Assembly: GCA_027624955.1 (NCBI GenBank)
Contig: JAQBTG010000026.1
Location: forward strand, 1-53,528
Direction: 5' to 3'
Origin: Pseudomonadota bacterium
GTDB taxonomy: Bacteria > Pseudomonadota > Alphaproteobacteria > UBA828
DNA length: 53,528 bases
The notes beneath the pieces were generated by a model that was given only the letters and a program-made list of their open reading frames with translations, made no database searches and was not told the DNA's origin. The translations under genes and the position numbers were made by a program. Below are positions 3,599-53,528 of this stretch, one piece after another (within the stretch, counting starts at the first letter, position 1; every line of letters starts with the position of its first letter).

Positions 3599-4700
3599 CG
3601 CCGCGGCGGATATGCGCCACATGGCGGGCGCGTTGGCGCTGGCCGAACGTGGGCTGGGCGCCGTTTGGCCAAATCCTGCAGTCGGCTGCGTCCTTGTGCG
3701 CGCCGGGCGCGTCGTCGGACGCGGCTGGACTCAAGCAGGCGGCCGGCCTCATGCCGAGAGCGAGGCGCTGACACGCGCCGGCGCCGCCGCCGAAGGCGCG
3801 ACCGCCTATGTGACACTCGAACCCTGCGCCCATCACGGCAAGACGCCACCATGCGCCGATGGGTTGATCGAAGCACGGGTCGCGCGCGTGGTGGCGGCCA
3901 TGAGCGACCCGGATCCGCGTGTGTCCGGGCGTGGTTTTGAGCGCCTCAAAGCGGCGGGAATCGAGGTTGCGATCGGCCCCGGAGGTGACGTAGCGGCCCG
4001 CCTCAACGCCGGTTTCCTGCAACGCATCGCGCTCGGTCGCCCCCTGGTGACGCTCAAGCTTGCGACCAGCTTGGATGGCCGCATCGCCACCGGGAGCGGC
4101 GAAAGTAAATGGATCACCGGCGATTTGTCGCGTGCCCGCAGCCACCTCTTGCGCGCCCAACACGATGCCATTCTGGTGGGCTCGGGAACCGCGTTGGCCG
4201 ACGATCCGGCTTTAACTTGCCGCCTTCCTGGCCTTGAAGAACGCTCTCCCATCCGCGTTGTCATGGATGGCCGCCTGCGGCTGCCGCCTAGCCATCAACT
4301 GGTTGCCGGCGCGCGCGACGTGCAAACCTGGATCGTCACAGTGGAGGGCGTCGATGCGGCGCGGCAAGAATCCTATCGGGTCGCCGGCGCCGAGGTGATC
4401 CCCGTCGCGCCAGATTCCGAAGGCCATCCCGATGCGCTGGCCACGCTCAATGCACTTGGTGAACGCGGCATTACCCGCCTGTTGGTAGAAGGCGGCGCGC
4501 ACGTCGCGGCGGCGCTGCTTGGCGCACGCCTGGTGGACCGCCTGATCTGCTTTCGCGCGCCCAGCATCCTTGGCGGAGACGGCGCGCCGGCGGCCGAATC
4601 CTTCGCCCTCGACCGCCTTATCGACGCACCCGCCTTTGTGCGCCAAAGCGTGAGCGAACTGGGCGGCGATCTTGTCGAAACATTCGATAGCAAATCATAG
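3576..4700 (+). CDS. ribD: Riboflavin biosynthesis deaminase/reductase RibD
   Basis: RibD performs the second and third steps of riboflavin synthesis: deamination of the pyrimidine 5'-phosphate and NADPH reduction of its ribosyl group. The N-terminal deaminase domain has the zinc motif His59-Ala-Glu61 and [11 protein letters not shown] (Cys84, Cys93). The reductase domain starts near 155 ([13 protein letters not shown]) and contains [15 protein letters not shown]. From the GTG at 3576 the protein has 374 residues and overlaps nrdR by 23 bases. An internal ATG at 3612 is an equally plausible start, since homologues usually begin a few residues before the first helix. It begins the rib gene run. 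Confidence 0.95.
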
Positions 4701-4708
4701 GCGCCGAA

Positions 4709-5305
4709 ATGTTTACAGGAATCATAAGCGACGTGGGTCGGCTCAGCGAAATCCGCGGGGCTGGGGGCGGCGAAGATCACCGTCTGATTATCGAAACCAG
4801 CTATGACACGGGCACGATCGCCATCGGCGCTTCCATCGCCTGTGCCGGGCCGTGCCTGACCGTGGTCGAAACCGGACCAGGATGGTTTGCTGTCGACGTC
4901 AGTGGTGAGACTCTCAACTGCACGACGATCGGCAAGTGGCAGGTGGGCAGTCGCATCAATTTGGAGCGTTCGCTCCGCCTTGGCGATGAATTGAGCGGTC
5001 ATCTGGTGAGCGGTCATGTCGATGGCGTGGGTAAACTTATGTCGCGCCAAGAAGACGGTGGGTCGGAGCATATGACGTTCTCAGCGCCCGCCGAGCTGAT
5101 GCGGTTCATCGCGGTGAAGGGCTCGATTGCCGTAGATGGCATTTCGCTCACGGTCAATGCGGTGGGCCGTCGGGACTTCGCGGTTAACATAATTTCCCAC
5201 ACGCTGGTAGCGACCGCCCTGGGCGACCTCATCCCGGGCGCCGCCGTCAATCTTGAGATCGACTTGCTTGCGCGCTACGTTGCTCGTCAGAAAGAGGAAA
5301 TTTAG
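4709..5305 (+). CDS. ribE: Riboflavin synthase, alpha subunit
   Basis: This enzyme dismutates two 6,7-dimethyl-8-ribityllumazine molecules to riboflavin and the pyrimidine that RibH reuses. The 198-residue protein begins with the invariant MFTGII and is built from two lumazine-binding repeats, the first about 1-95 and the second from about 97. It contains the conserved SGHLVSGHVDGVG and DGISLTVN stretches, one in each half. It is 8 bases after ribD and 2 bases before the ribB-type gene, firmly inside the operon. It is often called ribC in some genomes. Confidence 0.95.
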   Translation: MFTGIISDVGRLSEIRGAGGGEDHRLIIETSYDTGTIAIGASIACAGPCLTVVETGPGWFAVDVSGETLNCTTIGKWQVGSRINLERSLRLGDELSGHLVSGHVDGVGKLMSRQEDGGSEHMTFSAPAELMRFIAVKGSIAVDGISLTVNAVGRRDFAVNIISHTLVATALGDLIPGAAVNLEIDLLARYVARQKEEI

Positions 5306-51595: not shown

Positions 51596-51664
51596 CACGC
51601 GCGATTAATGAACCACTTGGCTCAATAATCTTTTTCGGGTTTCCACCTAAGTCCTTGAAATAAG

Positions 51665-51739
51665 TGGTGGGCGCTACTGGATTTGAACCAGTGACCCCCG
51701 CCGTGTGAAGACGGTGCTCTCCCACTGAGCTAAGCGCCC
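51665..51739 (-). tRNA. tRNA-Val(CAC)
   Basis: A complete cloverleaf on the minus strand. The acceptor GGGCGCT (51739-51733) pairs with AGCGCCC (51675-51669), then A and encoded CCA (51665-51667). The D-arm is GCTCAGTGGGAGAGC, the anticodon stem CCGTC/GGCGG with loop TTCACAC (anticodon CAC), and the T-arm CTGGTTCAAATCCAG. The length is 75 bases with CCA. Phage-like genes begin about 270 bases to its right. Confidence 0.97.
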
Positions 51740-52011
51740 TGACTCATCAAAACCGTTGCTTACTGTGGTAATTCTCGCCCTTTCGGGATTCCCGGTCAAT
51801 GCATTAAAAGAGTTGTTTTCTTGAAAATTTGGTACGGGATTGGTCCGAAGCTGAAGGGGGGGGGAGCGGAAAAATCCATCGCGCTATTCCATCTATGTAT
51901 AGATTGAACTCCCAGTGTTTGAGCAACTTTTTTCCTTGTGAAGAAATTTCCATCGCTGGCATTGCACCTCTATAATTCACATATATTTAGTGTGATTTAG
52001 GAGGGCAGCAA
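51740..52011. promoter_or_regulatory. Spacer between tRNA-Val and the phage-like gene
   Basis: It holds no gene. There is a run of nine G at 51856-51864, a near-palindrome ATCTAT-GT-ATAGAT at 51891-51904, and TCACA-N9-TGTGA at 51977-51995, the last just upstream of an AGGAGGGC ribosome site. These symmetric elements could be operator sites for the phage-like gene at 52012. The T-rich composition is unlike the surrounding housekeeping DNA. Confidence 0.4.
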
Positions 52012-53145
52012 ATGAAGACCGGCGAAGTGGAAGCAACTATCAAACGATTAATCCAGCGGGATGAAGGGATCGCACCGGCATTACGACTGCTAGAACAGAT
52101 GCTGGGTACAGCGATAAGCGAGAAGGAAGCTGAGGAATTAAGGCGAGTGATAGAGCGCCGGCGAATAAGGCTCTTGGCTGAGGCAGCCGTAGATGGCGTT
52201 GAGGTGGATACTGCCGGAATGAAGATCGAAGATGTCCGTGCCTCTCTGAGGGAAATGGTCGCTGAGACAGACAATCCTAACCTAATACGGATGGCGGATG
52301 GTGTTGCTGCAACATTCGGTGATGACGCTGCTGCCGGACGAATGAAGCCTGGTGGTCTGCGGGCGCGACGGTCAGGAAATGTGATCGTAGCTCCGGGAAA
52401 TGGTGTGGACCAAGGGTTTGCAGCTGTTAATGGAGAAAACCTTATACCCGTGTGGCTTGATGATGGTGAATATATTTTTTCGAACAAAGCTATCGAGGGT
52501 CTTGGTCTGCGCAACGGGGCACCCAGGGTAAAGGCGAGGGATGTTGGCCTGGTCGAGTTGGAAAAACTCCACAACGAGTTGAAAGCACTCGCAGCAACTG
52601 AGCCACCGGCACCGCCGGAAGAAATCACTGCCGATGTTGGCCCCGCAGAGCCTGTGATGACGCCCACCGAACTCTTAGCAGAAGCACAAATAGCGGAGGA
52701 GCGAAGGGAGCGGGCGGCGGTAGCTGACGAAACAGGCAGATGGCATGCATCAGACGAATTTATTAATGCTGTAATTGCTGCCGAAAGCGGCGGTGATCCC
52801 AACGCTGTGAGTGAGGCCGGCGCCGTTGGCTTGCTCCAGATTCTGCCAAGTACTGCCCGCGACCCCGGCTTTGGCGTGATTGGGTTGGAAGGAACTGATG
52901 ATGAAGTGGTGGCTCAGTTGAAGAATCCTGAAATCAACCGCCGCCTCGGGTCAGAATATTTGTCTGCGATGCTCCACCGTTATCATGGTGATGCTGACTT
53001 GGCGCTGGTTGCCTATAACGCCGGTCCGGCCAGAGCAGATAGGGTCGCGAAAGATGAAAGACCATTGGATCGATTCGTGGAGTTAAATCCTAAGGCTGCC
53101 CTAGAGACACTGCCATACATCAAGCGGGTTCTTGGAAATGTCTGA
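52012..53145 (+). CDS. Phage-like protein with C-terminal lytic transglycosylase domain
   Basis: A 377-residue protein. The N-terminal 110 residues are helical and charged. Residues about 120-165 have a phage virion pattern (VAPGNGVDQGFAAV, IPVWLDDGEYIFSNKAIEGLG). Residues about 245-377 are a soluble lytic transglycosylase domain (goose-lysozyme-like): Glu258 in AAESGGDPNA is the catalytic acid, followed by GAVGLLQILPSTA and YNAGPARADRV. Such fusions occur as internal or tail proteins that open the cell wall for DNA entry. No other structural gene is beside it. A strong ribosome site precedes the ATG. Confidence 0.8.
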   Translation: MKTGEVEATIKRLIQRDEGIAPALRLLEQMLGTAISEKEAEELRRVIERRRIRLLAEAAVDGVEVDTAGMKIEDVRASLREMVAETDNPNLIRMADGVAATFGDDAAAGRMKPGGLRARRSGNVIVAPGNGVDQGFAAVNGENLIPVWLDDGEYIFSNKAIEGLGLRNGAPRVKARDVGLVELEKLHNELKALAATEPPAPPEEITADVGPAEPVMTPTELLAEAQIAEERRERAAVADETGRWHASDEFINAVIAAESGGDPNAVSEAGAVGLLQILPSTARDPGFGVIGLEGTDDEVVAQLKNPEINRRLGSEYLSAMLHRYHGDADLALVAYNAGPARADRVAKDERPLDRFVELNPKAALETLPYIKRVLGNV

Positions 53146-53338
53146 ATTTATGCGTGCTGCCGAGGTGGCCAAATTGTTGGATGTGACCGAGAGGCGCGTC
53201 TATCAAATGATGGAAAGTGGCCAACTGGACTACCGTGGGCGCAGACCAAGGCGGATAAGCAAGGAGAGCTTTGATCAATATCTGGAAGGTCGGTGGCCTC
53301 AGTTGTTGGCGTTCATGAGTGGCGACCCCAGGAATTGA
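53138..53338 (+). CDS. Excisionase-like HTH DNA-binding protein
   Basis: A 66-residue protein with the MerR/Xis-type helix-turn-helix MRAAEVAKLLDVTERRVYQMM and a wing (GRRPRRISKESFDQYL). Such proteins act as excisionases or small regulators on phages and integrative elements. Its ATG overlaps the stop of the transglycosylase gene (ATGTCTGA). Its last codons coincide with a tRNA-like sequence at 53320-53342, so the gene ends right at a possible attachment site. Confidence 0.8.
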   Translation: MSEFMRAAEVAKLLDVTERRVYQMMESGQLDYRGRRPRRISKESFDQYLEGRWPQLLAFMSGDPRN

Positions 53339-53342
53339 ACCC
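53320..53342 (-). other. tRNA/tmRNA-like T-arm fragment, possible attachment site
   Basis: On the minus strand GGTTCAATTCCTGG followed by GGTCGCCA has the T-loop TTCAATT, a T-stem 3' strand CCTGG and a seven-base acceptor-like stretch. The 5' half of the stem is not matched, no CCA follows the expected discriminator, and no anticodon arm lies beside it. Fragments of this kind arise when an element integrates into a tRNA or tmRNA 3' end. It overlaps the end of the excisionase-like gene. Confidence 0.35.
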
Positions 53343-53481
53343 ATAGCTTAGCCATATTGGCGCGTGCTGCATTTCTGTCACCGACAATTGGCGTGACTGT
53401 TATGTAACTAACGTCTAGATTTTAGCCGCCTACGTAACCTTCGCAGGCAAGCGTCTATCGCGCATTGGAAAGATGAGGGGG

Positions 53482-53528
53482 ATGATGAAATCACTCACTA
53501 CTCTCCTCGCACCCATTCTTCTTCTGAC
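53482..53528 (+). CDS. Exported protein, 5' end only
   Basis: The window ends within this gene. An ATG-ATG pair at 53482/53485 follows GAGGGG. The readable start MMKSLTTLLAPILLL has a basic residue followed by a hydrophobic run, as in a Sec signal peptide. Nothing more can be said about its function. Confidence 0.5.
   Translation, partial: MMKSLTTLLAPILLL

Follow-up and report, generated by a model that had tools for sequence, protein, structure and literature searches.

The window analysed here, a stretch of 53,528 nucleotides, is the complete contig C26 of the draft genome G000 (3.58 Mb, 84 contigs, 98% complete), and the sequence read stops at its right end, position 53528. Among the ORFs listed for 51.6-53.5 kb, two are gene-like by reading; one encodes an SLT lytic transglycosylase and the other a small HTH protein of the excisionase family, whose start overlaps the SLT stop by 8 bases (Table 1). 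These genes were described in an earlier note as a phage-like module standing without integrase or capsid genes between tRNA-Val and a tRNA-like fragment; together with the leader in front of them they are referred to below as the module. The identities of both genes are borne out by profile matches above the cut-offs (PF01464, PF12728 and TIGR01764), the tRNA-Val is called in agreement by ARAGORN and Rfam, and there is indeed no integrase or capsid gene among the ORFs listed for 51.6-53.5 kb. Terminase, portal and primase genes are likewise not seen in this interval, which is cut off by the contig end at 53528.

Table 1. Positions of the module and of its neighbouring features in the window.
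Feature	Position	Strand	Basis or remark
tRNA-Val(cac)	51665..51739	-	ARAGORN; Rfam RF00005, 67 bits
Leader/control region	51838..51976	+	Common to the G002 (L024) and G001 (L022) copies
Dyad ATCTAT-GT-ATAGAT, possible operator	51891..51904	+	By reading
Candidate sigma-70-like promoter, TTTCCA-18-TATAAT, upstream of SLT	51947..51976	+	10/12 consensus
377-aa SLT protein	52012..53145	+	PF01464 profile
66-aa HTH_17/excisionase-family (Xis/AlpA-like) protein, from ATG	53138..53338	+	PF12728, TIGR01764
T-arm-like 23-mer	53320..53342	-	Overlaps last HTH codons
Unmatched tail	53346..53528		ORF start runs off contig (by reading)

The SLT lytic transglycosylase domain is C-terminal (residues 241-349 of the 377-aa protein; PF01464, 80.1 bits against a cut-off of 21.3, E 1.2e-22 in the profile search), and the translation contains ES at residue 258 and also AYNAG, which we take to be the motif with the catalytic glutamate and the later motif of SLT lytic transglycosylases, respectively. 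PHROG matches of the protein are to lytic tail protein and endolysin families. Among the matches listed, the domain is 41-46% identical (90-96 bits) to Caulobacter and Paracoccus phage proteins, which are lytic virion or hypothetical proteins, and the strongest of the matches listed are virion lytic proteins of alphaproteobacterial phages; it is also 39% identical to a protein of Pelagibacter phage HTVC024P, the gene of which lies among putative internal virion genes. The catalytic domain is thus shared, at 39-46% identity over ~125 residues, with the podovirus-like phages ParKuw1 (Paracoccus), HTVC024P and RW (Caulobacter). In ParKuw1 and HTVC024P, however, it is one part of a large protein, the genes for which (3,183 and 2,709 bp) stand in a virion gene cluster; in the module it makes up the C-terminal part of a protein of 377 aa, the N-terminus of which is unrelated, and no structural genes adjoin. 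The protein matches 894 phage records, all with less than 60% identity and none covering more than 80% of the query, and 966 plasmid records; the difference between the plasmid matches (at most 75 bits) and the best phage match (96 bits) is a rough comparison, as both figures come from the matches listed and neither set was ranked by bits.

At E 10, none of 50,697 phage records matches the N-terminal 240 aa of the SLT protein, and pieces of this region reach only 0.012 as the best match in PHROG; the counterpart in the same-genus genome G002 is 78% identical. On the evidence of these searches, the N-terminal ~240 aa are considered novel. The earlier description of the enzyme as virion-type thus stands in part: such a role plausibly fits the catalytic domain only, because the N-terminal 240 residues are without a phage match. 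The DGEF/DGEY motif, which is presumably a podovirus virion motif, was considered for the middle of the protein and rejected, as a search of three phage loci, two of them complete phage records and the third a stretch, did not find it. A structure prediction from the single sequence had a mean pLDDT of 48.8 and was set aside.

The HTH protein scores 43.8 bits against PF12728 (cut-off 27) and 32.4 bits against the excisionase family TIGR01764 (cut-off 28.8), and is 77% identical to a protein of another same-genus genome (G001). It is provisionally identified from these profiles as an AlpA/Xis-type regulator or excision factor. An identity as MADS MAD1 was rejected at 21.7 of 80 bits, under the cut-off, and a tblastn search of plasmids gave no match to the HTH protein.

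The leader of the window aligns locally with those of the G002 and G001 copies at scores of 60 and 39, respectively, neither of which was reached in 1000 first-order Markov shuffles; among the three leaders the scores are 39, 60 and 65, and the shuffle maxima are 26, 32 and 28 (1000 each). All three copies having that stretch (window, G001 and G002) contain the core TATGTATAGAT-N12-15-TTTGAGCA, and the arms of the dyad, which may be an operator, are paired at 6/6 positions in the window, 5/6 in G001 and 4/6 in G002. At the place aligned with the candidate promoter, G001 and G002 read TTTCTT-18-TAGAAT (by reading). The promoter scan is near chance (3 promoter-like sites, where shuffles give 1.3) and the match alone is weak, so the site is a candidate supported by the spacing common to the copies. 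The leader is followed by the SLT and then the HTH gene in the window and directly by the HTH gene in G001, while in G002 the SLT gene comes after it and the contig end falls inside this gene.

The genomes compared, G000 included, comprise 6 of the same genus, 21 of the family and 22 of the order; the homologue searches used draft assemblies, in which the G002 copy sits at a contig end. Pieces of the module are present at five loci in four of the six same-genus genomes, with two of the copies decayed. Outside the window, the DNA search finds the SLT N-terminal region at 82% identity over 368 bp in G002:C265, where the leader is present too, and the HTH gene at 81% over 167 bp in G001:C71, where the leader is recognized by alignment and by the core pattern. 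G005:C12 retains HTH residues 15-62 (E 7e-26; DNA 90% identical over part of the gene), and a decayed second copy in G000 itself (G000:C46) retains 72 bp of the SLT region at 79% and a leader piece, the leader start matching at 85% over 40 bp. In the latter (L008, 4448-4538), the leader start is joined to the SLT N-terminal piece, and an internal deletion between similar GAAGCTGA stretches is apparent by reading. In the DNA search G003 matched the module query in tRNAs only, and G004 gave no match at all. Within the family, 2 of 21 genomes contain the SLT N-terminus, and within the order 3 of 22 contain the HTH gene, so the module is not ordinary chromosome conserved in all relatives; among 385 class genomes the HTH gene is found in one, that of the window, in a sample that need not include all same-genus genomes. 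Five scans of IMG/VR with peptides or DNA patterns detected no copy of the module.

Neighbours differ at each locus (their names being mostly from reading ORF translations), namely tRNA-Val in the window and a phosphatase-like gene in G002, while in G001 the copy is on the 3' side of tRNA-Lys, after tgt; in G005 a gene resembling chemotaxis receptors is broken off at the HTH remnant, and at C46 the neighbours are two genes of chromosomal appearance. The sequence past the HTH gene differs in all three copies read, so that no common right end is apparent. The composition shifts as well: 1-kb intervals that begin between 51.5 and 52.5 kb have a GC skew of 0.126-0.193, those that begin between 40.0 and 51.0 kb one of -0.064 to 0.049. 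If the two genes, a regulator and a cell-wall enzyme, were immobile accessory genes that descended within the genus and were lost or reshuffled in most of its members, their occurrence in one genus only would be explained; this is quite unlikely in view of the neighbours that differ at every copy, the second decayed copy in the same genome, the strong composition shift and the absence from G003 and G004. The phage-like and mobile character proposed earlier is upheld by the SLT matches, the excisionase score above its cut-off, the base composition shift and the recurrence at different places in sister genomes.

The proposed borders fared otherwise. The 3' end of tRNA-Val faces left, which leaves the module on its 5' side, and elements of tyrosine recombinases are normally inserted 3' of a tRNA. 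The longest exact repeat common to both flanks is 7 bp, against a mean of 7.5 in shuffled sequence, in a comparison confined to the sequence up to 53528; the actual right end may be situated beyond the contig. tRNA-Val is probably not the attachment site of the module, and was rejected as such for its wrong geometry and the lack of a repeat common to the flanks. Neither the weak imperfect repeats of the region (e.g. 22 nt at 73% between 53196 and 53451) nor the two inverted pairs that match exactly over 12-13 nt were accepted as element ends.

At the right, the tRNA-like fragment does not hold up. Chance alone would give 0.91 occurrences of GGTTCRANTC per window; 3 are found, 2 of them in tRNAs called by ARAGORN, whereas the T-arm-like stretch itself has neither an ARAGORN call nor an Rfam match at E up to 10. 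The 23-mer has no second copy in its own genome within 3 mismatches, no parent tRNA or copy within 1 mismatch in the 22 order genomes (own included) and no exact copy in IMG/VR, and it agrees with the 3' ends of the 19 distinct tRNAs in the loci analysed at 10 of 23 positions at best (two register shifts). The stretch is most likely coincidental, and was rejected as attR as a chance-level match with no tRNA call and no copy elsewhere. With about one such 10-mer to be expected in every 53-kb window, a sequence of this kind is unfit as the sole clue to an att site. An element bounded by tRNA-Val and the T-arm-like fragment, which do flank both genes, is therefore highly improbable: the module lies on the wrong side of the tRNA, the flanks share no repeat above chance, the fragment has no parent tRNA in 22 genomes, and a 3' tRNA fragment oriented in this way would point to an element on its right and not on its left.

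The surroundings of tRNA-Val also vary. In G001, G002 and G003 (L025, L026 and L027) tRNA-Val is preceded by a phosphoglycolate-phosphatase-like gene, which has no close match in G000 (best 27% identity); in the window tRNA-Val stands beside a DUF924 gene, and in G001 the NIPSNAP-DUF924 pair is at another location without tRNA-Val. With a differing neighbourhood and no close match to the phosphatase, either the stretch was rearranged or the junction is misassembled. An assembly artefact joining unrelated contig pieces at a draft contig end would suit the draft state of the genome, the position at a contig end and the different tRNA-Val neighbourhood in the three relatives read, and is yet very unlikely as an account of the module: the leader and SLT (G002) and the leader and HTH (G001) are contiguous in independent assemblies, therefore the module is real and only the tRNA-Val junction is doubtful. 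Beyond the HTH gene, the tail has no match in the five other same-genus genomes or elsewhere in G000 (DNA search); an ORF with a signal-peptide-like beginning starts within it (53484-53528) and runs off the contig end, unmatched in relatives. A continuation on another G000 contig was rejected, as the DNA query 51600-53528 gave no overlapping contig end. The module is a real, phage-like and probably mobile fragment, the borders first given to it being wrong or unproven.

The copy in G001 (L022, G001:C71, 1002-3281) comprises the HTH gene, a 524-aa effector and a four-repeat CRISPR array, and lies ~290 bp 3' of tRNA-Lys; the leader common to the window precedes the HTH gene, and the SLT gene is absent. 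The effector, which follows the HTH gene after 38 bases, is Cas12f/V-U-like, as it contains a Cas12f1-like TNB domain (PF07282, 52.4 bits against a cut-off of 26.3) and has Cas12f as its best PADLOC match (E 3e-27); it falls under the NCBIfam Cas12f2 cut-off (NF049972, 90.6 of 450 bits) and just under that of guided_TnpB (89.4 of 100 bits). The array has four repeats with a 33-nt core identical in 4/4 and spacings of 67, 65 and 66, and a repeat array beside a Cas12-type effector places the locus among type V CRISPR-Cas systems. The effector is encoded in one of the six same-genus genomes. Distant relatives of it are the TnpB-like proteins of two plasmids, annotated as 'RNA-guided endonuclease TnpB family protein' and 'zinc ribbon domain-containing protein', the genes of which adjoin CRISPR-like arrays of eight repeats in Pseudoalteromonas spongiae (L030, NZ_CP023400.1, 5466-7440) and five repeats in Salinibacter ruber (L031, NZ_CP030362.1, 6073-8344). 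Three positions, which are presumably the RuvC D, E and D, are invariant in the alignment of the three proteins. In IMG/VR, 20-mers of one of three G001 spacers matched 6 contigs and those of two matched none; the matches were rejected as protospacers, since they agree at 21-23 positions of the full 34-nt spacer and lie in two unrelated genes.

The sequence 3' of tRNA-Lys differs in all four genomes read (G000, G001, G002 and G009), for which reason this tRNA is likely an insertion hot spot. In G000 the place is taken by a different, low-GC stretch (L071, G000:C24, 1220-3083; GC 0.44, that of tgt being 0.62), which carries small ORFs and a DUF6641 gene and extends to the contig end; this is likely another mobile element. 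Another side observation concerns G005, where a tyrosine integrase gene without most of the C-terminal catalytic domain (profile; L023, G005:C12, 6108-7160) lies ~1.35 kb from the HTH remnant at 4614-4757; this integrase may belong to another element.

The module could instead be the decayed end of an ordinary temperate prophage reaching past the right contig end, with the SLT protein as a leftover virion lysozyme and the HTH protein as the excisionase. The best matches of the SLT domain, among those listed, to phage lytic virion proteins, the excisionase-like HTH protein (PHROG and TIGR01764) and a contig that stops 383 bp past the region of the HTH start agree with this possibility, which is nonetheless somewhat unlikely: G001 has the leader and HTH without SLT and a Cas12-CRISPR locus instead, no other phage gene is seen, and the 183-bp tail is unmatched in relatives. 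The order of promoter, SLT and Xis, which is unusual for phage late genes, also speaks against a prophage end.

The reading we prefer, with a probability of roughly one half, regards the module as the regulatory end of a horizontally mobile element that is restricted to the genus and has here been cut short, either by decay or by the end of the contig. It is favoured by the five loci, the leader scores, the GC skew, the phage-like SLT domain, the excisionase-family HTH protein, the position of the G001 copy 3' of tRNA-Lys and the truncated integrase near the G005 HTH remnant; against it count the lack of an integrase, primase or att repeat beside the module in the window, of a common right end and of an IMG/VR copy. 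Such an element would be of the integrative, satellite or prophage type, combining an AlpA/Xis-like protein with exchangeable cargo, and may depend on a helper. A promoter in the common leader would drive an operon whose constant member is the small AlpA/Xis-type HTH protein, with the phage-type lytic transglycosylase as the cargo after the promoter in the window genome and G002; in G001 the HTH gene would be transcribed directly after the promoter, followed by the compact Cas12 effector and the CRISPR array. The HTH protein would most likely bind the leader or the attachment region and regulate both expression and excision, the integrase for the latter being encoded in another part of the element. 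The SLT protein is predicted to cleave peptidoglycan when DNA enters or is released, in the manner of virion lysozymes.

The closest working model is provided by the PICMI satellites of Vibrionaceae, in which an AlpA-like protein is needed for excision and defence genes are the cargo (PMC10803314). The PICMI model given there accepts PF12728 (or PF05930) as AlpA (PMC10803314), and by this standard the HTH protein of the module, at 43.8 bits against PF12728, is AlpA-like. The module resembles PICMI in its small HTH_17-class protein, its operon with variable neighbours, its defence cargo and its marine hosts; in contrast to PICMI, neither an integrase nor a primase is seen with it in the stretch to 53528, its neighbour is tRNA-Val and not fis, and no helper phage is known. 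PICMI membership is not claimed. The G001 copy in turn is similar to compact type V (Cas12f/V-U) loci on mobile elements (PMC11656645, PMC12669027) in pairing a 524-aa TNB-domain effector with an array, but the window itself has no CRISPR and the G001 effector is under the Cas12f2 cut-off. It also recalls CvkR, a MerR-type repressor adjoining Cas12k (PMC9938897), in having a small HTH regulator beside a Cas12 gene, and differs from it in that the regulator is of the HTH_17/excisionase type and no Tn7-like transposition genes are seen. A more specific version, namely an undescribed family of small satellites in marine Alphaproteobacteria with one control region, an AlpA/Xis-like protein and cargo swapped at a fixed place (virion-type lysozyme or compact Cas12-CRISPR), is unlikely.

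The module looks like a fragment of a genomic parasite and not like a new kind of thing, and the only feature that merits further pursuit is its alternation, in a sister genome, with a CRISPR-Cas12 locus. If the reading as a mobile element is true, the uncultured marine Alphaproteobacteria related to MarineAlpha10_Bin2 would carry a genus-specific family of integrative elements, where a single small regulator is found together with a lysozyme-type gene in some cases and with a miniature CRISPR system in others; this would be a further example of cargo that alternates between defence and virion genes.
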